This document shows positions 7,425 through 18,308 of a DNA stretch of 64,000 nt, one piece after another (positions within the stretch are counted from its first letter, which is position 1; the number at the start of each line of letters is the position of its first letter). Location of the stretch: the NCBI RefSeq assembly GCF_007475525.1, contig NZ_CP037899.1, positions 1,426,001 through 1,490,000 of the forward strand, in the 5' to 3' direction. The position numbers and the translations under genes are program-made. The notes below the pieces were generated by a model, which made no database searches, was not told where the DNA came from, and saw only the letters and a program-made list of their open reading frames with translations. This DNA is from Methylacidiphilum kamchatkense Kam1. GTDB lineage: Bacteria; Verrucomicrobiota; Verrucomicrobiia; Methylacidiphilales; Methylacidiphilaceae.

Positions 7425-8860
7425 TCAATTATCCGATTCGTTGATCCCAGTTGCAGTTCTATGAGATGCCAACGGGCTTGTGGGCAGTTGGTCGGTAGCA
7501 GTCGTTTTTTTGGATTGCAAGATCAATACCATATTCTGGAAATCAAAAGTAACAATAAAAGACTTCAAAAAGCTATTCCCCACAATCGCCCCAATGTGGA
7601 ATCCTTGCTTATGGTCAATAGCAGGTGGAAAATCATAGCTTTTTCCTATATCGGCCTTTACATTTTCCATGACAATATTGCCAATCTGTATTTTGGGAAC
7701 AATCGTGTAAATGGAAGGATATCTTCCACCTCTCCTTAAGCCGATCATCCACCCCCATACCGAGGCAAATGGAATTTCTCAAGCATCCATTCAGAAAAGG
7801 TAAAAGCTCTTCCCACATCCAGGCTATCCACCATAAAAAAGATTCCTTCTTGATCATTAATCTTTCCTTGAATCAGAATCTGTCCTCCAGGAGTTAAGTA
7901 AAAAGGAAGCTTCGTAACCGTCGATCCATCTTTTATCCCTAGAAAAGATCGTTCAGAAAAAGAGGCCTCTCTTTTTTGTAAGAAAAGCTCTTTCTTCGGA
8001 TAATCTATCGTTACATTAAATTGTCGCATCATATCTGTTCCTATCACTCCATGAACTATCTGTGGCACATGTTGAGGAAAAAGATAGGTGCCTTTCCATC
8101 GAGCTAAAAGGATGGGAATTCTTTCTATTTTCATATCTCCAATTTGTAGCGATTGGATAATCCCTGTTCTAGCTCGAATGGACCATTTGCCTGCAAAGTT
8201 GAACCAGAACTGTAGGGCAATGGTATCAAGAAGCCTAATATCTTTTATTTTTTCATAAAGAGCTCTATCCAGAGCAGTAAACGAACTGCGAGTATCCAGA
8301 AAAAACGAGACTTTTTTCCTGCATATTTTTACTGGAATACCCACAAAAGGATAGGACTCATCAAGTTTGATACTAGTCTGTGGTTCCAGCACATCGAATG
8401 CCTTCGGTTCCAGTTGAGTAAGAAGGTTGGCAGTCCACCCTTCTCTAATCTCAGTTAATAAGTCAGCCGATTGTTCAAGCTTTCCTTCTCTATAATAACA
8501 AATTGCCAATAGCCTCTTCATCTCGGTATCTTCAGGATTTAATGCCAATCCCTTTTGAAGAAACCTACTGGCATCTTCAAGTTGGTTTTTCATCAAAGCC
8601 ACCCACCCAAGGATCTTTAATGATTTCCAGTCCTTCGGATCCCGGAGGAAAGCTTCGAAGGCTACACGGGCCGCCGCCTCTATCCTCCCTTCATGAAAAA
8701 GGTGGCTTGGGTTTTGCCTATCTATTGCCTCAGGGATCGGCTCTGAAAATCCATGGGAAAAGAACAAGAAGCATAAAAGACTAGCAAGGTACCAGGAAAA
8801 ATTTTTTGTTCCCTCTTTATTGGGGGAAGAAAGAAGAGGATCGAAAAAACCTATGTCCAT
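7425..8860 (-). CDS. Exported TPR plus tandem retropepsin-like domain protein (frame interrupted)
   Basis: The first frame (stop at 7745) encodes 371 residues: a signal-type hydrophobic segment (about 22-40), TPR-like repeats (about 48-155) and two retropepsin-like domains (about 170-290 and 300 onward). The second frame (from 7748) encodes the rest of the last domain, ending FDFQNMVLILQ. Adding one base to the C5 run at 7752-7756 joins them as RYGGWMIGLRRGGRYPSIY. The catalytic DTG motif is degenerate: FFLDTRSSFTAL in domain one, MVDSLDVG in domain two, so protease activity is doubtful. The product is probably a periplasmic or membrane-anchored protein of about 478 residues. It follows the beta-barrel-like gene after 24 bp. 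Confidence 0.7.
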
Positions 8861-8884
8861 CTTTGTCTTTTTGATGCAGAATCC

Positions 8885-9886
8885 TTAAAAAAGCAAATGA
8901 AACTTCACTACAAAAGCATTCGAATATTCCTTTTCGACTGTCTTTTTATCAATGGCGATCTGATATCCAATACCAAAATAAAGTTTCCAATCATCTTTGA
9001 ATCGAAATCTTCCTACTAAAACTTCAGGGGTAATAAAAAGCCCAGGAGCTCCAATAAAGAAAAGCTGATCGATGCTTGAAGTAGAATTAATTTCGATTGT
9101 TGGGGTGACGTAGCCAATTTTATATTGCAAGGCAATGTTATAAAAGTAGGGAATACCGAAGGTTCTATTGGCTCCATCGGCCCATTGACTTCCTAAATTG
9201 ATCATAAAATCAAAATTTCCAAAGCCCTTGCCAAAGAGGACGATAGGATCCCAGATCCAGTGTGCAGGATAGTCTGGAAGAGTTTGTCCTAGAGGGGAGT
9301 GAGCAGCAAGCATGACCGAAAAGACATAATTTTTCTGTCCTTCAGGAGAAGCCATAATTCTGTTTTTAATTAAAAAACTTTCCCCTTGAAACCCATCGAG
9401 TCGGCCTTCTCCTGGGTAATAAATGTATTGTGGCAGAGAAAAAGCAAATTCTAGGGTCGGACCAACAATTAAATTGACTCCCTTGCCTGCACCCATATTC
9501 CATCTTTTATTCCCATTTGGTAATGTTTGATCGTAGACATCATACCGAATGCGTTGCTCCAATCTTGGAGTTTCAGTCACAAGCGGAGTAAGCCAGGATG
9601 TTTGTCGGTTTCTTGTCTCTTCGGTCATTTTCCTCCACTTGCCTATCCATCCTTTCCCGTAATCGGCTTGATTCATCGTTTCAACGATATCTTGCACAGC
9701 GATCTCTTCCCCAGGCCAGAATACTGTATCAGCCCATAGAATCTCTCTTGTAGAAAGAAGGACCATGGGGACTAAAAGAAACAAACAAAAAACTCCTATA
9801 GAAAGAGAGAAATGAGTGGGAGAGCATTTCTTAGCAAAGCAGAAAAAAAAATAGAAACAGTAAAAAAGATAAAAAAAATATAACAC
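8885..9886 (-). CDS. Outer-membrane beta-barrel-like protein, unknown
   Basis: Up to 333 residues from a GTG; the true start is uncertain because the first 25 residues are an odd Phe/Tyr-rich stretch before a better signal sequence (LSIGVFCLFLLVPMVLL). The mature part alternates aromatic and polar residues (for example IYYPGEGRLDGFQGESFLI, PYFYNIALQYKIGYVTPTIE) and ends in FHLLF, as outer-membrane barrels do with a terminal aromatic. Resembles the broad 'transporter-like' barrel proteins (MetA-pathway/phenol-degradation type). It is upstream of, and probably co-transcribed with, the TPR/retropepsin-like gene. No substrate can be named. Confidence 0.5.
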   Translation of the reverse strand: MLYFFYLFYCFYFFFCFAKKCSPTHFSLSIGVFCLFLLVPMVLLSTREILWADTVFWPGEEIAVQDIVETMNQADYGKGWIGKWRKMTEETRNRQTSWLTPLVTETPRLEQRIRYDVYDQTLPNGNKRWNMGAGKGVNLIVGPTLEFAFSLPQYIYYPGEGRLDGFQGESFLIKNRIMASPEGQKNYVFSVMLAAHSPLGQTLPDYPAHWIWDPIVLFGKGFGNFDFMINLGSQWADGANRTFGIPYFYNIALQYKIGYVTPTIEINSTSSIDQLFFIGAPGLFITPEVLVGRFRFKDDWKLYFGIGYQIAIDKKTVEKEYSNAFVVKFHLLF

Positions 9887-10036
9887 TGACTATAATTCAA
9901 AATAGATAGTTAGTTATAAAATTCTCTTTTATGTTTAAATTGATGAGATGAAGAAAAGTTTTATTTTTCATTCAGCTATTTGCCTTAATAATCCTTTTAT
10001 TACAAAGAGCAGGAAAGGATAAAGGAAATTATTGAT

Positions 10037-10579
10037 TCATTCTTTTTTCCAGTTTTCAATGATTGAGGATACCGTGGAGAGCTCTACAGCGTAAAATTTG
10101 TGAAGATATTCTAGCCCACTTTCCTGTTCTTGGGGACTAAAGGCACACACCCCATCTACTGGTACGATCGTATGATAGTTTAAAAAGAAGGCATCGGCAG
10201 CTGTATGCCTTATACACAGATGGGTATGCAGACCCACTAAGATAATGGTATCCACCTTCAAAGATCTTAGTACGAGGTCCAGTCCTGTTTCCCTAAACCC
10301 ACTATAAGTCCTTTTTTCAAGCACGATATCCGATGGGCTTGGGGCCAGTTCTTTGATAATAGAAGCTCCAGGGGAACCTTTCATGGCATGCTCCCCCCAG
10401 ATTGTTATTTCTGGATCACTAGGAAGATGGGCATCCCCAACATAAATAACCGGCTTTTTTTTAGCTCTAGCCGCGATACTTAATTTTCTGATCGGTTCTA
10501 TAATCTTCACTGCTTCTCTAGAAGCAAGCTTCCCACCAACGAAATCTTCAAGCATGTCAATAACAACTACAGCCTCCAT
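10037..10579 (-). CDS. Isochorismatase-like cysteine hydrolase (nicotinamidase family)
   Basis: 180 residues from the ATG at 10579 (MEAVVVIDML); 12 more codons are open upstream but are not conserved in style. The family triad is visible: Asp in VVVIDMLEDF, Lys in VLEKRTYSGF, Cys in GLHTHLCIRHTAADAFF. Such cytoplasmic enzymes hydrolyse amides or related substrates (nicotinamide, isochorismate, carbamoyl compounds). It carries DAHLPSDPEITIWGEHAMKG, which resembles nicotinamidases of the archaeal/bacterial PncA-like type, but substrate is not settled. About 48 bp downstream of typA on the same strand. Confidence 0.82.
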   Translation of the reverse strand: MEAVVVIDMLEDFVGGKLASREAVKIIEPIRKLSIAARAKKKPVIYVGDAHLPSDPEITIWGEHAMKGSPGASIIKELAPSPSDIVLEKRTYSGFRETGLDLVLRSLKVDTIILVGLHTHLCIRHTAADAFFLNYHTIVPVDGVCAFSPQEQESGLEYLHKFYAVELSTVSSIIENWKKE

Positions 10580-10627
10580 AGAGATTTTTATTGTTGAAGT
10601 TCCATTGGAAAACACCCTCAGTCTATC

Positions 10628-12460
10628 CTATGAACCTATTTTTATGGCAGCTTTTTTCCGGTCATTCGAATCTAATATTTTTTTTCGAATCCTAATCTTT
10701 GTTGGAGTGACCTCAACAAGTTCCTCACTACTAATGAATTCTATCGCTTCTTCAAGCCTAAAAATCTTCGGCGGTTCTAGTCCAATAGCTTTGCCTTCGC
10801 CTTGAGAACGAATATTCGTCAAATGCTTTGCTTTGCAAGGATTAACAAGAAGATCCCCAGGTCTTTTATGTTCCCCAACTACCATCCCTTCATATACTTC
10901 TTCACCCGGACCAATAAAAAGGATGCCTCTTTGTTGGAGATTTTCCAAAGCATAAGTTGTCGAAATACCTTTTGCAATTGAAACAAGAACCCCATTGCTC
11001 CTTATTTCAATTTCTCCCTGCTTAGGGCCATACGCATGAAAGAGATGACTCGCATAACCTTCCCCTCGGGTCAGATTAACAAATTCAGTTTCAAACCCAA
11101 TTAAGCCCCTGGTTGGAATTAACGCCTCCATAAAAACCCTCTGCTGACTATTTCTCATCATGCGAATATTGCCACCCCTTTTCGAAAGCATTTCCATTAC
11201 TGGCCCAAGGCATTCTTGTGGGATATCTACCGATAAGAGCTCATAAGGCTCGAAGAGGATACCAGAAGAATCAGCTTTGTAAATCACTTCTGGTCGACTA
11301 ACCATAAGCTCGAACCCTTCTCTGCGCATTTGTTCGACAAGAATAGCTATCTGCATGGTCCCTCTACCACTAATTTCAAAGGCGCCAGGTACGTCCGTTT
11401 CTTCAACTCTAAGCCCTACATTGGTTCTTACTTCTTTGAGAAGCCTTCCATAGATGTGTCTCGCTGTCAGAAGTTTCCCCTCTTTGCCTGCTAAAGGCGA
11501 ATCATTAACCAGGATCCGCATGCGAACCGTAGGCGGATCTACTTCTATTCGTGGCAGGGGAATAGTATCCTCGACATCTGATATCGTATCTCCAATATAA
11601 ACTTCTTCCAAACCAGCTATTCCGACTATATCCCCAGCAGAAGCTTCGGAAAGCTCTATCCGTTCCAATCCTTTAAAGCCTAAAATCGCTGTGACAGTTC
11701 CCCGACTCGTTTTCCCAGATTTTTGATAAGAAAAAAGGGGAGAACCCACTTTAATTGTACCAGAAAAAATTTTGCCAATCGCAATTCTGCCTAAATAATC
11801 GCTGTAATCCAAGTTGGCGACTAAAAGCTTAAAAACTGGGTCCTGAGAGATAGTCGGAGAAGGGATATGAGTCAAAATAGCTTCAAAAAGTGGCTTGAAG
11901 CCGTTCTTCTTATCTTCAACTGAGATTTCTTTTTTCCATTCTTTCAAAGCGATGCCTTCTTTAGCTGAAACATACAATACGGGAAAATCTAGCTGTTTGT
12001 CAGAAGCCTCTAATTCAAGAAAGAGTTCGAAAATCTGGTCTAGAACCTTAATAGGCTGGGCATTTGCCCTGTCAATCTTATTAATGAGCACCAGCGGACT
12101 GAGATTTTGGGATAAAGCTTTTTTCAATACAAACTTAGTTTGCGCTTGAGGCCCTTCTACAGCGTCTACCAATAGCAAAACGCCATCAACCATCCCTAGA
12201 CTTCTTTCTACCTCACTTCCAAAATCGGCATGTCCAGGTGTATCAATCAAATTGATCTTGTAATTCTCATACTGGAAAGAGGCATTCTTTGCTCGGATGG
12301 TGATCCCCTTTTCTCTTTCCAAGTCCATGCTATCCATTATTCTTTCGGTCAATTGTTGGTTTTGCCGAAAGGAGCCAGACTGTTTCAACAGTTGGTCTAC
12401 TAACGTTGTTTTTCCATGATCAACATGAGCAATAATCGCAATGTTTTTTATCTTTTCCAT
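10628..12460 (-). CDS. typA: Ribosome-associated GTPase TypA/BipA
   Basis: 610 residues, the normal family length. G-domain motifs are intact: [10 protein letters not shown] (G1, residue 11), REKGITI (switch I), DTPGHADFG (G3), [10 protein letters not shown] (G4). These are followed by domain II, the EF-G-like domain and the BipA C-terminal domain (for example [14 protein letters not shown]... and [20 protein letters not shown]). It binds the 70S ribosome and assists subunit assembly and stress or low-temperature growth in other bacteria. Start ATG is preceded by an AT-rich leader of about 50 bp. Confidence 0.96.
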
Positions 12461-12513
12461 AATCTAAACTTTATATATATACACTATTTATTTAATTCTT
12501 CGTTCATACATAG

Positions 12514-13440
12514 CTATGGGTGAAGTAACAGGGAGTTACCGGATTGCGCTTTGAGCAATTTCGCCGCTGATCCCTGACTTGATGAAATCTCTAAGTAGCC
12601 GCTGCTATTATATAATACGCCAACTTTTCCCAAAGGCAACTCACTATAGGTTTTTACACAGGGAGCTGCAAGCGTTATTTTCCCAATCTGCACTCGAACC
12701 AAATTCCCTTCTTTGATCCAGGAAGCCATTCCCATAGGGATATTGGTAATAATGTTACCAAAATGATCAATATAAAGGACCTGTCCGGAAACACTCTGTC
12801 CAATCGTCGACGGAGGAGAGAAATTCAACAAATGAAGATTTTCTTTTGGCATTCTAGAACCTGTATTCTGAGGTTTTCCCCCCTGACTTAGATAGGCCGC
12901 CACCGGACCAAAAATATCCCTTCCATGAAATGTATGACTTGGTTCTTCCCTTTTCCATATTTCTTTTTTATCCAGAGTCCATACTTCCGCTACCCCCTCT
13001 CTCTCTATGACAAGACTAAAAATCCCATTATCAGGACCGATATAAAACTTATGGGCTTTGGTTTCTAGGAGAATGCCCTTACGCTCCGTTCCTACTCCTG
13101 GATCCACTACGGCCACAAAAATAGAACCTGCAGGAAATTCCAAGGCTGATTGATCAATAAGAAAAGCCGCTTCGGTAAGATTATAAGGTTCAATTTCATG
13201 ATTGAGATCAATGACCCGAGCAAAAGGATCTATAGAGTAAATCACTCCTTTTAGTTGTGCTACATAATGATCTTTAGAACCAAAGTCGGTAATAAGTCCT
13301 ATAATCGGCCTTGAATCAAAAGCATGCTCCATATGAGACTTTTTGTTGCAGCCCGAATATACAATCATTATTCCAGTCAAAAAAAGCAAAAGAAAGCCTT
13401 TAGAAAGGAGAGATTTTAAAAATAAGGCTTTTTTCTCCAT
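12514..13440 (-). CDS. Lipoprotein with SAM hydroxide adenosyltransferase (DUF62) domain
   Basis: About 309 residues from the ATG at 13440 (MEKKALFLK); 28 codons further upstream are open but overlap the previous gene. The N-terminus is a lipoprotein signal with hydrophobic core LLLFLTGIMIVYSGC, Cys at residue 31. The rest is a full two-domain SAM-hydrolase/fluorinase-type protein: GLITDFGSKDHYVAQLKGV (about 47), VDPGVGTERKG (about 113), then the C-terminal beta-barrel with DHFGNIITNIP. The family splits S-adenosylmethionine to adenosine and methionine and is normally cytoplasmic; export to the envelope is unusual. Follows the UPF0104 gene after 16 bp. Confidence 0.85.
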   Translation of the reverse strand: MEKKALFLKSLLSKGFLLLFLTGIMIVYSGCNKKSHMEHAFDSRPIIGLITDFGSKDHYVAQLKGVIYSIDPFARVIDLNHEIEPYNLTEAAFLIDQSALEFPAGSIFVAVVDPGVGTERKGILLETKAHKFYIGPDNGIFSLVIEREGVAEVWTLDKKEIWKREEPSHTFHGRDIFGPVAAYLSQGGKPQNTGSRMPKENLHLLNFSPPSTIGQSVSGQVLYIDHFGNIITNIPMGMASWIKEGNLVRVQIGKITLAAPCVKTYSELPLGKVGVLYNSSGYLEISSSQGSAAKLLKAQSGNSLLLHP

Positions 13441-13456
13441 GTCAATCCCATTTTTT

Positions 13457-14605
13457 TTATTTGGTAGGAAGAGAAACGCTGTTGTTTTTATTTTTTTTCC
13501 AAGCCAAGAAAAATACTCCTCCAATTAAGCTCCAGAGTATTCCAACGCTGAAAGATAGTAATGAAAAACCCAAAGCAAGTTCTGGGCTGATGCCATAAGA
13601 ACCAAGCAATAGCACTACTGCTCCTTCTCTTACGCCTAGACCCGAGATGCTGATCGGAAGGAATACGATAAGGGTGATCTCAACCATCACCACCGCTAGA
13701 AGCCATAGAGGCAAGTGCATATGAAGGGAGGCAGCTACAAAAACAAACATTAGAATGGCCGATAGATGCACTCCTATAGAAAGAATACAAGCGGCCAAGA
13801 TTCGACCATAGCAATCCTTAAAGGCATCTAAAACATGGAGAATATCCTTAAGGACCTGTTCTAGCCTTTTCCATTTTTCCAGATATCTTTGCGATAACTG
13901 GATGCCAAATTTCAGAAGCATAGGAAGGGTAGCTAAAAATAAAAGAGTTAAAAGAGTGAGACCTAAAAGAAAAAGAACCGCTTTTTGAAGCAAAGGTTGA
14001 TCATTGAGTTGTCTATAAAACAATAGCCCAAAGAGAGATCCCAAGACAAGAAGCATCACCCCTTCAATCAGTCTATCAAAAAGGATGGAAACAGACACTG
14101 CCGTTTTGTTCCTCGGGAAAAGCTCCATAGCATAATAGATCCTCACAAAATCCCCGCTGGTTCCCCCTGGTAAGGCAGCGTTGAAAAATTTTCCAATCAT
14201 TGCTAGTTCAAAGGCTGTCCAACCCTTAATAGGAATGTTCAAAGCATAAAGCAGGATTTTCCAGCGCAGAGAAGAAAGAATAGTTTGTAAGGCACAAAAT
14301 ATGAAGGCAAAACTAAGCAGTATAAGATCGATCGATTGGCAATAAGCAAAAAATTTCTGCCAGTTGAGCTTTGAACCTAAATAAAAAAGAAGAGAAAAAG
14401 AAATGAGGGTTTTGAGTACAATCCCCCAAAAATTTTTACTTTCCTTTTTTCTCTCAATTGGCTTTTGTTGAAGATCACTGAAGTCGACTGCAGCTGCATG
14501 CAAAGATTCTTTTTCAGGGTTTATCGATTTTTTTTTCAACTCGCACTCCAATTGTTCTTCTCTAGCTTCTAATAAGAGCCTTCTATCATTACGATCGCTT
14601 TTCAA
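13457..14605 (-). CDS. UPF0104 / lysylphosphatidylglycerol synthase transmembrane-region protein
   Basis: 382 residues: a charged N-terminal ~65 residues, then eight or so membrane helices. Family features are NWQKFFAYCQSIDLILLSFA, FFNAALPGGTSGDFVRIYY (the conserved PGG.GGD motif), VSILFDRLIEGVML and LPISISGLGVREGAVVLLLG. Related to the flippase half of MprF and to aglycosyl lipid handling proteins; it has no aminoacyl transferase domain, so it probably moves or flips a lipid. Transcribed with the downstream lipoprotein gene. Confidence 0.82.
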   Translation of the reverse strand: MKSDRNDRRLLLEAREEQLECELKKKSINPEKESLHAAAVDFSDLQQKPIERKKESKNFWGIVLKTLISFSLLFYLGSKLNWQKFFAYCQSIDLILLSFAFIFCALQTILSSLRWKILLYALNIPIKGWTAFELAMIGKFFNAALPGGTSGDFVRIYYAMELFPRNKTAVSVSILFDRLIEGVMLLVLGSLFGLLFYRQLNDQPLLQKAVLFLLGLTLLTLLFLATLPMLLKFGIQLSQRYLEKWKRLEQVLKDILHVLDAFKDCYGRILAACILSIGVHLSAILMFVFVAASLHMHLPLWLLAVVMVEITLIVFLPISISGLGVREGAVVLLLGSYGISPELALGFSLLSFSVGILWSLIGGVFFLAWKKNKNNSVSLPTK

Positions 14606-14763
14606 AAGAAAAAAGCATAGATGACTTTTGCCTCCCTTTCTAACTTTTTCTACCTCTCTCTGTTGGGTCCACCTCTATGGTGTTTTAAAACATTATTCTA
14701 TAGGAAGAAAACTATTTACTTATCGCTCAAAAAAAGGACTGTATTGAAAGAAAAAAAATTAAA

Positions 14764-16061
14764 ATGAACAGCTTTTTCATCGTAGGCATTCTTGTTGGAG
14801 TGGGAATCGGGTTTCTTTTAGCGGTGCTGCTACTAAGACCCAGATACATTTTGCTTCAAAAAGATCTAGAAAGATATAAGAATGAAAACGAAAATTTGAT
14901 TAAATTACAGGCTCAAAATAAAGAGTTAGAGCTACAAATAGCCACTCTTGAAGCTCAAAAGCAGGCTGAACAAGAAAAATTCTCTGGGTCACAGCGGCTC
15001 AAGACACTCTCAAAACTATGTTTCAATCCCTCGCATTGCAGGTTTTAGAATCGAATTCCAAAAATATTCTGGAGCAGGCTACTTATCAATTTCATTCCCT
15101 CTTTGAGAGCATGAAAGCGGACTGGAATCTAAAAAAACAAGAATTCAAAGAAATAGTCTTACCGATTGAAAAAAGCCTGGAAGCCTTGGATCAACAGATA
15201 AAAACCTTGGAAAGCAAAAGGGAAGGAGCTTATAGCTCACTGAGCGCTCATTTAACCCATCTATCCGTGGCTTACAAAGAACTCCATGAATCAGCAATAA
15301 AACTGGAACAATCTTTAAAATCTCCTCTTGTAAGAGGATCATGGGGAGAATATCAACTCCAGCGTCTTGTAGAAATGGCCGGAATGAAAGAACACGTCTC
15401 CTATATTCCACAGCCTCCGGATGCAGACAAAAGAGCTGATATGATCATCTATATCCCTGGGAATAGAAAGATATATGTGGATGCAAAAACGCCGATGGGA
15501 GCCTATCTTGAGGCTATGACAGCGGATAACGAAACCACAAGAAAAATAAAATTAAAGGAGCATCTGGCAGCGGTCAAGGAAAGAATCAGAGACTTAGGGA
15601 AAAAAGACTATGGTCAGAATCAAACCGATGCATTTGAATATGTCATCATGTTCTTACCAAATGAAGGGCTTCTATCTGTTTCTTTTGAAGCAGATCCAGA
15701 AATATTTCAATATGCCCTAGAAAGAAAAGTCCTTCTTGCTTCACCGATCAATTTTCTTGCCTTGCTCAAAGCAATTGCTCTTGGCTGGCAACAACAACAA
15801 ATGACTGAAGAGGTCGAAAAAATTGCCCATGAAATCAAAGAGCTTTACAGTTCTTTTGTAGAGCTCATGGAACTATTAAACAGACTCCGCAAAGCATTGG
15901 GAAGCTCGATGGAGGCTTTCAACAAAATTGCAACCCTCTGCCAGGGAAAAATCATTCCTTCGACAAAAAAAATTAAAACGAGTGGAGCATTTTCCGAAGA
16001 GGTGGGTGATGTCCCTGAAATCGAATCCACTCTTAAGGACATACCGCCCCAGTCGTCCTAG
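14764..16061 (+). CDS. rmuC: DNA recombination protein RmuC (frame interrupted)
   Basis: Two frames overlap at 15018-15048. The first gives an N-terminal membrane anchor (IVGILVGVGIGFLLAVLLL) and coiled coil. The second gives the conserved RmuC nuclease-like domain: SPLVRGSWGEYQLQRLVEMA, then IYIPGNRKIYVDAKTPMGAY, and VIMFLPNEGLLSVSFE. Adding one A to the A5 run at 14975-14979 makes a continuous QEKILWVTAAQDTLKTMF, the expected family join. Full product about 432 residues. RmuC limits inversions and recombination at short repeats in E. coli. Start ATG follows an AT-rich leader. Confidence 0.85.
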
Positions 16062-16155
16062 AGTCATGAATGAAAAAAATGCCTTTTTGCTTTAAGAATT
16101 GTAGACAGTTTCTTGAAAGAAACAAACTTCAGAGTAGAGTTAAAAAACAAAAGGG

Positions 16156-18308
16156 ATGCTAGCAACTTTTAATAAGCCTGAATATTTTATTAACCGAGAG
16201 CTAAGCTGGCTTGAATTCAATGCGAGAGTTTTGGAAGAAGCTGCCGATCCAAAACAGCCTTTGCTTGAAAGACTTCGGTTCCTTTGTATCTTTAGCTCCA
16301 ATTTAGATGAATTTTTGAAATTCGAGTCGCAGGAATCAAACAGCAAATAGAAAACGGAAGTGAAGAACAGAGTGCTGATGGGTTGACTCCCCTTCAGGTT
16401 TTCGAAGGAATCGAAAAAAGGACACATGAACTCGTTGAAAAACAATACAAAATTTGGAACGAGGAGATTAAGCCAGCTTTAAAAAAGAATGGGATCTTTT
16501 TATGCACCCACAATGAATTGACAGAATCAGAGCTAGAATGGTGTAAAACCTATTTTGATAAAGAAATTTTTCCCGTTCTGACTCCTCTGGCAGTTGATTC
16601 GAGTCATCCTTTCCCTCAATTAGTCAACAAATGCCTTAATCTGATCTTGACTTTGAAACGGCCTAATGCCTCTCATATGCACAATTTTGGCATTGTTCAA
16701 ATTCCAAGGATTTTGCCACGCCTCATCACATTGCCTGGGAGTAATTCTAAATCGGGTTTTAGATTTATTCTTTTAAGTGATCTGGTCATAAACTTTCTAG
16801 ACACGCTTTTCCCTGGAGACGAAATTCAAGATGTCAATTCCTTCAGAATTACTCGGAACAGTGAGCTTTATATCGATGAAGAAGAAGCAGAGAACCTCTT
16901 ACAAACCGTTGAAGAGGAGTTAAAAAAGAGGAACAGAGGCAACGCTGTCAGGCTAGAAATAGAAGCCACATGTCCAAGAGAACTAGAAGAAATTCTGTTG
17001 AAAGCACTTCATCTTGATCATCGAGATTCCTATCGCAATCCTGATCCTTTGAACTTCCTTCATCTTTTACCTATCTGTAACCATGAAGCATTTCCACACC
17101 TAAGAGATAGGCCATGGACCCCTGTTATCCCTTTAGAACTAAGTGGAAAACCTGATCTTTTTGAAGTGATTCGCAAAACTGATGTGCTTCTCCACCATCC
17201 GTATGAAAGCTTTGGAATCATTGTCGATTTTTTACAGAAAGCAGCCATTGATCCTTCCGTCCTTGGAATAAGAATGACTCTCTATCGAACCAGTGGAGAT
17301 TCTCCGATCGTTCATGCTCTTATTCGAGCAGCCCAAAATGGCAAACAAGTCACGGCTTTGGTCGAAATTAAAGCCAGATTCGACGAAGAAAACAATATCC
17401 AATGGGCCAGGCGTATGGAAGAAGCTGGAGTACATGTTCTTTATGGTATTGTTGGATTGAAAACTCATTGTAAAATGCTTGAAATCATCCGGAGAGATCC
17501 AGATCAAATTAGGTTGTACGTTCACCTCGCTACAGGCAATTATCATCCAAGCACGGCAAGGTTGTACACTGATCTGAGCCTTTTAACCACCAATGAGGAG
17601 ATAACGAAAGAAGTAGCGACTCTTTTCAACATATTGACCGGGCTTTCTCGATTTCATGGCATCGAAAAACTTATCGTTTCTCCATTTAATATGGCCAGCA
17701 GACTAAAGGAGATGATCCAAAGAGAAATTAACAATGCCAAAGAAGGGAAAAAAGCTAGAATCATTGCAAAACTGAATGCCCTTGTTGATGAAGATATCAT
17801 TCAACATCTTTATGCTGCTTCTTCTGCTGGTGTTAAAATTGATCTTATAGTCAGGGGCATTTGCTGTTTAAGACCAGGGATTCCACAAGTCAGTGAAAAT
17901 ATTAGAGTCATTAGCATTGTAGGTAGGTTCTTGGAACATAGTCGGATCTTCTATTTTGAGAATGGCGGCAATCCTGAATATTATTCAGGGAGTGCGGATT
18001 GGATGCAAAGAAACTTTTATAGGAGAATCGAAGTTATTTTTCCTATAGAAAATCCCAAATTAAAAGAAAAGGTGCACGAAATTTTAGAGGCTTATCTAGC
18101 GGATAACGTCAAAGCCAGAGAACTTTTACCTAATGGTATTTATAGACGAATCAAACCAGAAAAAGAGCCTTTTCAGGCTCAACTCTACTTTAGAGAAAAA
18201 GCAAGAAAAGAACAACTAATCCAATCGAAAGGAAGGGAAGGAACGGAAATTCCCATCAAAGCTGTTCAACCACTGGCTATAGAAAACCAAAACCAAAATC
18301 TTCTCTAG
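16156..18308 (+). CDS. ppk: Polyphosphate kinase 1 (frame interrupted)
   Basis: Makes inorganic polyphosphate from ATP at the membrane. The first frame covers the N-terminal 64 residues ([20 protein letters not shown]), the second the remaining 641. One extra T in the T5 run at 16312-16316 joins them as [20 protein letters not shown], exactly the PPK1 sequence. The autophosphorylated His lies in [14 protein letters not shown], a second in [33 protein letters not shown] is also typical. Corrected length about 717 residues, as in the family. Lies 94 bp after rmuC. Confidence 0.9.

Follow-up and report, generated by a model that had tools for sequence, protein, structure and literature searches.

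SAM hydroxide adenosyltransferases (SAM_HAT) split S-adenosylmethionine (SAM) and are best known inside cells. The phage T3 SAMase/SAM lyase presumably belongs to an unrelated family. It degrades SAM too, by another reaction, according to the accessible parts of PMC7877911 and PMC8406200. The closest described systems are the (R,S)-SAM hydrolases of the DUF62 family, represented by structures from T. maritima (2zbu) and of PH0463 (1wu8, 2wr8) and MJ1651 (2f4n, 22uy). PMC4859513 names D68-R75-H127 as the catalytic triad of PH0463 and describes two pocket motifs, PxNG and IDxxFGN. The SAM hydrolase triad is also described in PMC10491745, which reports, in its accessible text, that the halogenases of the same fold lack this triad and use other nucleophiles. 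For StDUF62, another member of the DUF62 family, PMC12120602 recounts hydrolysis of (R,S)-SAM and questions whether this is what the enzyme does physiologically. The word 'periplasm' is absent from the main texts of PMC12120602, PMC10491745 and PMC4859513, and no report of export in the SAM_HAT family was found among the literature matches listed, judged by titles and abstract openings and mostly from outside subscription journals.

Here we describe a SAM_HAT protein encoded in the window, i.e., the whole 64,000-nucleotide stretch of Methylacidiphilum kamchatkense Kam1 DNA that was analysed. Methylacidiphilum is placed in the order Methylacidiphilales and the phylum Verrucomicrobiota. The SAM_HAT/DUF62 enzyme family is already known; what appears to be new is a conserved, lipoprotein-type exported version of it. 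All readable members of one clade carry an export signal, and the same clade holds both intact and broken active sites, which makes for a testable question: if catalysis is the reason why an exported copy is kept, a SAM-like compound has to be present in the envelope. An exported SAM_HAT gene of E. coli, which has matches in 2374 of 5426 genomes and is open to study in laboratory strains, raises this question too.

Materials and methods

Export signals were called with our own simple hydropathy and lipobox script, which used a loose lipobox pattern and required an ATG, GTG or TTG start. Several rows were called by eye against the script: L007 and L011 were taken to have a signal (script 'none'), L005, L012, L026 and L043 to have the lipobox Cys (script 'SIG'), L080 and L096 to be Sec-type (script 'LIPO'), and L022 to be Cys-less, the script's lipobox falling within the hydrophobic core.

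N-termini were readable in 43 order homologues. The other five genomes hold contig-edge or partial copies and were left out (L015 of genome G009, at a contig end, and the partial copies of G012, G029, G049 and G058), as was G279, where a 63-residue match lies within a 2731-aa frame. The tree was built from 96 domains and from the domains alone. Duplicate loci were dropped (L001, L032, L049, L053, L057, L058 and L071), L101, which resembles L097, was kept out of the tree, and L103, which is partial, was kept out of both tree and counts.

Gene and domain layout

The original prediction placed a signal peptide with a lipobox on a SAM_HAT domain, and the open reading frame, the Pfam matches and the N-terminal sequence all bear this out (Table 1). 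In the N-terminus, MEKKALFLKSLLSKGFLLLFLTGIMIVYSGC, a basic n-region and a hydrophobic core precede Cys31, and the loose-pattern script finds in it the features of a bacterial lipoprotein (n-region, hydrophobic core and Cys lipobox). Between the end of the upstream gene and ATG 13440 there are 16 bases, which is consistent with this start. Calling the lipobox clear was slightly overstated: the box around Cys31 is in place, but it has Tyr at −3 (VYSGC), which is unusual, Tyr at this position being atypical of the lipobox consensus.

Table 1. Positions of the SAM_HAT gene, its parts and its neighbours in the window.
Feature	Position	Strand	Basis or remark
SAM_HAT protein gene, 308 aa, lipoprotein-type signal sequence	12514..13440	(-)	ORF (ATG at 13440, stop at 12514, exactly as originally located) and Pfam; sole genomic PF01887 match
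Signal sequence, residues 1-30, K-rich n-region and hydrophobic core	13351..13440	(-)	Sequence, hydropathy script
Cys31 (VYSG-C-NKK, with Asn at +2), where lipidation is predicted	13348..13350	(-)	Cys in 37/43 order relatives
SAM_HAT_N, residues 47-193	12862..13302	(-)	Pfam PF01887, E 3.3e-53; AF2 model/Foldseek to 2zbu
SAM_HAT_C, residues 219-303	12532..12786	(-)	Pfam PF20257, E 2.5e-21
Asp113, equivalent to D68 of PH0463 (catalytic)	13102..13104	(-)	Alignment; triad as in the available part of PMC4859513
Arg120, equivalent to R75 of PH0463	13081..13083	(-)	Alignment
His172, equivalent to H127 of PH0463	12925..12927	(-)	Alignment
Flippase-like membrane protein (LPG_synthase_TM), co-directional, ends 16 bases before the SAM_HAT ATG	13457..14605	(-)	Pfam
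TypA/BipA GTPase gene, downstream neighbour, not a shown partner	10628..12460	(-)	Profile match

Both domains score above their curated Pfam cut-offs (PF01887, 179.8 bits against 26.3; PF20257, 76.3 against 25.5). The models for (R)-SAM hydrolase equivalogs fell below theirs (NF058624, 177.7 against 350; NF053629, 166.2 against 470), and the cut-off of the fluorinase model TIGR04507 was not reached (84.4 bits against 400). A homologue in Methylacidiphilum sp. Yel is 93% identical.

Gene neighbourhood

Among the 30 order loci L002-L031, compared with flanks of 1.5 kb (L032, a second copy of the L004 locus, not included), the flippase-like gene adjoins SAM_HAT in 10. The TypA gene is adjacent in L002-L011, L015, L028 and L030, and one gene removed in L029. 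The whole block flippase-SAM_HAT-TypA occurs in L002-L011, and SAM_HAT with TypA in a few loci from other families. The chosen neighbours scanned in six further loci (L106-L111) are mostly unrelated and include a lytic transglycosylase domain, a PMI-like protein, an exosortase region, GDP-mannose dehydratase and YidC. We read the block as shared synteny and reject TypA and the flippase as functional partners; the loci examined show no conserved partner.

NAGPA was considered as a partner because the exported E. coli gene neighbours yigE, which is NAGPA-like, and was dropped: PF09992 occurs in 16 of 42 genomes searched, never within 40 kb of SAM_HAT on one contig, and is absent from the five Methylacidiphilum genomes. 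A plasmid or phage origin was rejected too. Positions 8000-18000 have no near match in plasmids, and the protein matches in 10 plasmid and 8 phage records are distant (37% identity at most).

Elsewhere in the window, 8885-9886 (-) encodes a 333-aa protein that has no Pfam or NCBIfam match at E 0.001 and is 95% identical in L032, and 7745-8860 (-) encodes a protein in which TPR repeats precede an aspartyl-protease-like domain that narrowly exceeds its Pfam cut-off.

Active site and fold

By alignment, D113-R120-H172 of the window protein corresponds to the triad D68-R75-H127 of PH0463. Both pocket motifs (PxNG, IDxxFGN) are kept, as is the equivalent of D16. The motifs GLITDFGSKDHY and VDPGVG were both found in the protein, and the catalytic domain is intact, as had been proposed. 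The AF2 monomer model has a mean pLDDT of 87.4, and a Foldseek search matched it to 2zbu with an E of 2.2e-34, 37% identity and a TM score of 0.92 by target length. Forty chains lay below E 0.001, all of the SAM hydrolase/halogenase fold, with 2wr8 being a SAH complex.

The window protein is alike to the DUF62 hydrolases compared (T. maritima, PH0463 and MJ1651) in both domains (PF01887 and PF20257), fold, triad and pocket motifs. The difference lies at the N-terminus: the match starts at residue 2-12 of the DUF62 chains, which thus have no preceding signal, whereas in the window protein the domains follow a lipobox signal sequence. The fluorinase FlA and the chlorinase SalL are alike in fold and weakly in sequence, but the triad that the window protein has is absent from them (PMC10491745, available text).

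Over four genus pairs the dN/dS of the domain is about 0.07-0.13: comparison with the two nearest relatives gives 0.083 and 0.13, and two wider pairs give 0.113 and 0.068. The window domain is under strong purifying selection. The N-terminus changes faster than the domain (0.32-0.76 in the three computable pairs), and signal sequences are known to evolve fast.

Export signal and lipobox across the order

The gene is present in 48 of 60 genomes, comprising the window's own and its relatives, with a single PF01887 match in 45 of the 48 and two partial matches each in the other three. On the tree the order rows (n = 43) form one side of a branch with a support of 98/91. An export signal is present in all 43 readable order homologues (41 by script; in L007 and L011 it was recognised by eye, with AUC as the start), and a relative without the signal was not seen among them. 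Across the order the type of the signal sequence is conserved and its letters are not, and many relatives have canonical-looking lipoboxes, e.g., LAGC, LTGC, MLGC and FLGC. The lipobox Cys is conserved in 37 of the 43 (L026 from script output by eye), which is no independent count as the six Cys-less rows were picked by eye beforehand. These six all belong to genus g13, which has two further members with the Cys; they keep a Sec-like signal, and the Cys-less label requires two changes on the tree. The window genome encodes the signal peptidase II LspA (PF01252, E 2.4e-34).

Domains without any Cys make up 23 of the 43 order rows versus 6 of the 37 rows of the 'cytosolic' group (Mann-Whitney p 2e-7, uncorrected for relatedness), a group that is defined by its absent signal, so that this absence is no separate test, and that was placed on a tree made from domains only. 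The low Cys count of the exported domains may be an indirect sign of export. As predicted from these features, export of the window protein is well supported and lipidation at Cys31 is likely.

In genus g3 (L007-L011) no ATG, GTG or TTG start is common to the five genomes. The five do share the position of an AUC codon (AUA in L010), which fits a conserved non-standard start, and this putative start has GGAG 8 bases upstream in four genomes and GGGGGA in L009. Read by hand, the start region of the L007 gene (about 1478-1500) has the AUC overlapping the final bases of the flippase frame.

Exported copies outside the order

PF01887 occurs in 51 of 387 genomes of the phylum sample. Among 45 copies examined there outside the order, 31 lack a signal, 13 have one of mostly Sec type, and L087, from another family of the phylum, has a lipobox; the place of L087 next to the order clade is not firmly supported (72/60). 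A second clade (100/100) unites 13 genomes of the window's class (unnamed families f12 and f21), E. coli, Aeromonas and a signal-less Enterococcus copy (L102 1977-2816, on a plasmid and adjacent to an ECF-type transporter gene). Apart from the Enterococcus copy, 13 of its 15 rows have a Sec-like signal lacking a lipobox by script, and all 15 have an intact triad. Most show the motif QTDF..KDGAV, whose Ala takes the place of the Tyr common in other rows. Exported SAM_HAT thus recurs, and the single stray exported copy implied by the original prediction is not supported.

In E. coli AR_0077 the exported gene (L104 7923-8825) sits between yigE and uvrD. RefSeq gives it a family name only ('SAM hydrolase/SAM-dependent halogenase family protein' in 7 of 8 E. 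coli rows listed). K-12 MG1655 has no gene annotated at this site, yigE and uvrD being 146 bases apart, and with its matches in 2374 of 5426 genomes the gene resembles a presence/absence polymorphism. A record labelled Helicobacter phage Pt11444_1 encodes a signal-bearing SAM_HAT protein (L101 1923-2825) with 88% identity to that of E. coli; according to PMC11321410, nine H. pylori genomes have prophages bordered by a gene of the SAM hydroxide adenosyltransferase family.

Candidate function of the window protein

The sequence and the model support the export signal, both domains, the fold and the intactness of the active site, and from these features the window protein may be catalytically active. 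We tentatively read it as a hydrolase of SAM or (R,S)-SAM that is tethered in the envelope, i.e., a lipoprotein with a working periplasmic domain, although we would stop short of calling this probable. The protein would be exported by Sec and lipidated at Cys31 after export. By the E. coli rule, lipoproteins without Asp at +2 are sorted to the outer membrane; the window protein has no Asp at +2 and would probably go there. The Asp-Arg-His triad would then activate water against C5' of S-adenosylmethionine, the substrate most likely being the (R,S) epimer of SAM, or SAM from lysed neighbours, and adenosine and methionine would be released outside the cytoplasm. The purpose may be the clearing or scavenging of SAM in the envelope. 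Scavenging taken by itself, in which exogenous SAM would be degraded to supply the cell with adenosine and methionine in the manner of periplasmic nucleotidases, is unlikely. The chemistry of the family and the exported homologues of E. coli and Aeromonas speak for it; the autotrophic methanotroph lifestyle speaks against it, and simple salvage is weakened because the two product-import families searched, CNT nucleoside transporters (PF07662) and MetQ (PF03180), have no match in the genome.

The order-wide signal, the low Cys content, LspA, the intact site, the fold match and the low dN/dS all speak for the hydrolase reading. So does the separately branching, mostly exported second clade, whose triad is intact in 15 of 15 rows, which suggests that extracytoplasmic catalysis is maintained elsewhere as well. 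It is favoured for the window protein because the triad and pocket motifs are intact and purifying selection is strong, and to this extent the envelope SAM-like substrate offered by the original prediction is the preferred of its two suggestions. No evidence was found for a source of SAM outside the cytoplasm, which counts against this reading, as do the atypical Tyr at −3 and the scores below the (R)-SAM hydrolase equivalog cut-offs. Methylacidiphilum lives near pH 2, and a periplasmic catalytic His would be protonated at about this pH, so a His-based mechanism in situ is disfavoured by the acid outside the cell. SAM itself is more stable in acid.

Loss of the triad and alternative readings

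The triad is whole in 35 of the 43 order rows and broken in eight, versus 1 of the 53 other rows (Fisher p 0.0098, uncorrected for relatedness). It is wholly lost in L043, L044 and L046, Arg and His are lost in L045, His in L011, L027 and L031, and Arg in L028, which amounts to at least five changes on the tree, with L095 left out. L095, a second copy in G216 with a motif lacking Asp-Pro, is the sole broken row among the 53. The Asp aligned with fluorinase D21, which we take to be a methionine contact, is kept in 42 of the 43 order rows. In genus g5 the dN/dS is 0.05-0.07 with His replaced in two of three genomes, the synonymous change being near saturation in two of three pairs. L043, L044, L045 and L046 are lipoprotein-type proteins in which the triad is wholly or largely lost and the C-terminal domain is kept.

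Since the triad is lost in 8 of 43 and selection persists in g5, canonical-triad hydrolysis cannot be essential everywhere. Some members of the clade thus keep the exported protein after losing canonical water activation, and the other or non-catalytic use that had been offered as the second suggestion gains weight for these clade members, which keep the signal, while it is less favoured for the window protein. Drift of the lineage in places towards non-catalytic use is our best reading of the pattern.

Taken further, the exported clade could be becoming, or already be, a non-catalytic binder of an adenosine- or SAM-like envelope ligand, with the window protein keeping ancestral residues. We regard this as unlikely, yet as deserving real weight. 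Besides the repeated breakage of the triad, selection in g5 is strong despite the replaced His, and the fold is preserved in the L046 model (mean pLDDT 81.2; 2zbu is the top PDB hit, E 7e-23). Against such a binder stand the whole triads of the large majority of rows, the five Methylacidiphilum rows (L002-L006) among them; moreover, some of the single substitutions could be assembly errors in draft genomes, and in L043-L046 the pocket is also changed in part, so that the ligand may be lost too. A broader scenario, which is speculative and doubtful, would have an order-wide lipoprotein family arise from a cytoplasmic SAM hydrolase, act first on SAM-like sulfonium substrates in the periplasm and then, through repeated loss of catalysis, yield a lipoprotein that binds or senses an adenosine-type ligand; if that happened, these bacteria must have a SAM or adenosyl signal outside the cytoplasm.

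It is very unlikely that the protein stays in the cytoplasm, through translation from Met37 or an unused hydrophobic stretch. Met37 is present in the window protein and close relatives, and the Tyr at −3 is unusual. Against this, a start downstream of the lipobox is not conserved among the N-termini seen, the signal persists across the order despite divergent letters, the g13 members lacking the Cys have a Sec-like signal in its stead, and the exported domains are poor in Cys.

There is a rather small chance that the protein is an active hydrolase of another adenosyl compound (another 5'-activated nucleoside) and that SAM is not its substrate in vivo. Against this, the conserved Asp aligned with fluorinase D21 is consistent with a methionine-bearing substrate, and no candidate pathway gene adjoins SAM_HAT in the loci examined. 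No extracellular pool of SAM is known, and this counts for another substrate, as do the halogenases of the same fold with their other nucleophiles (PMC10491745) and the doubts over the role of (R,S)-SAM hydrolysis by DUF62 proteins (PMC12120602).
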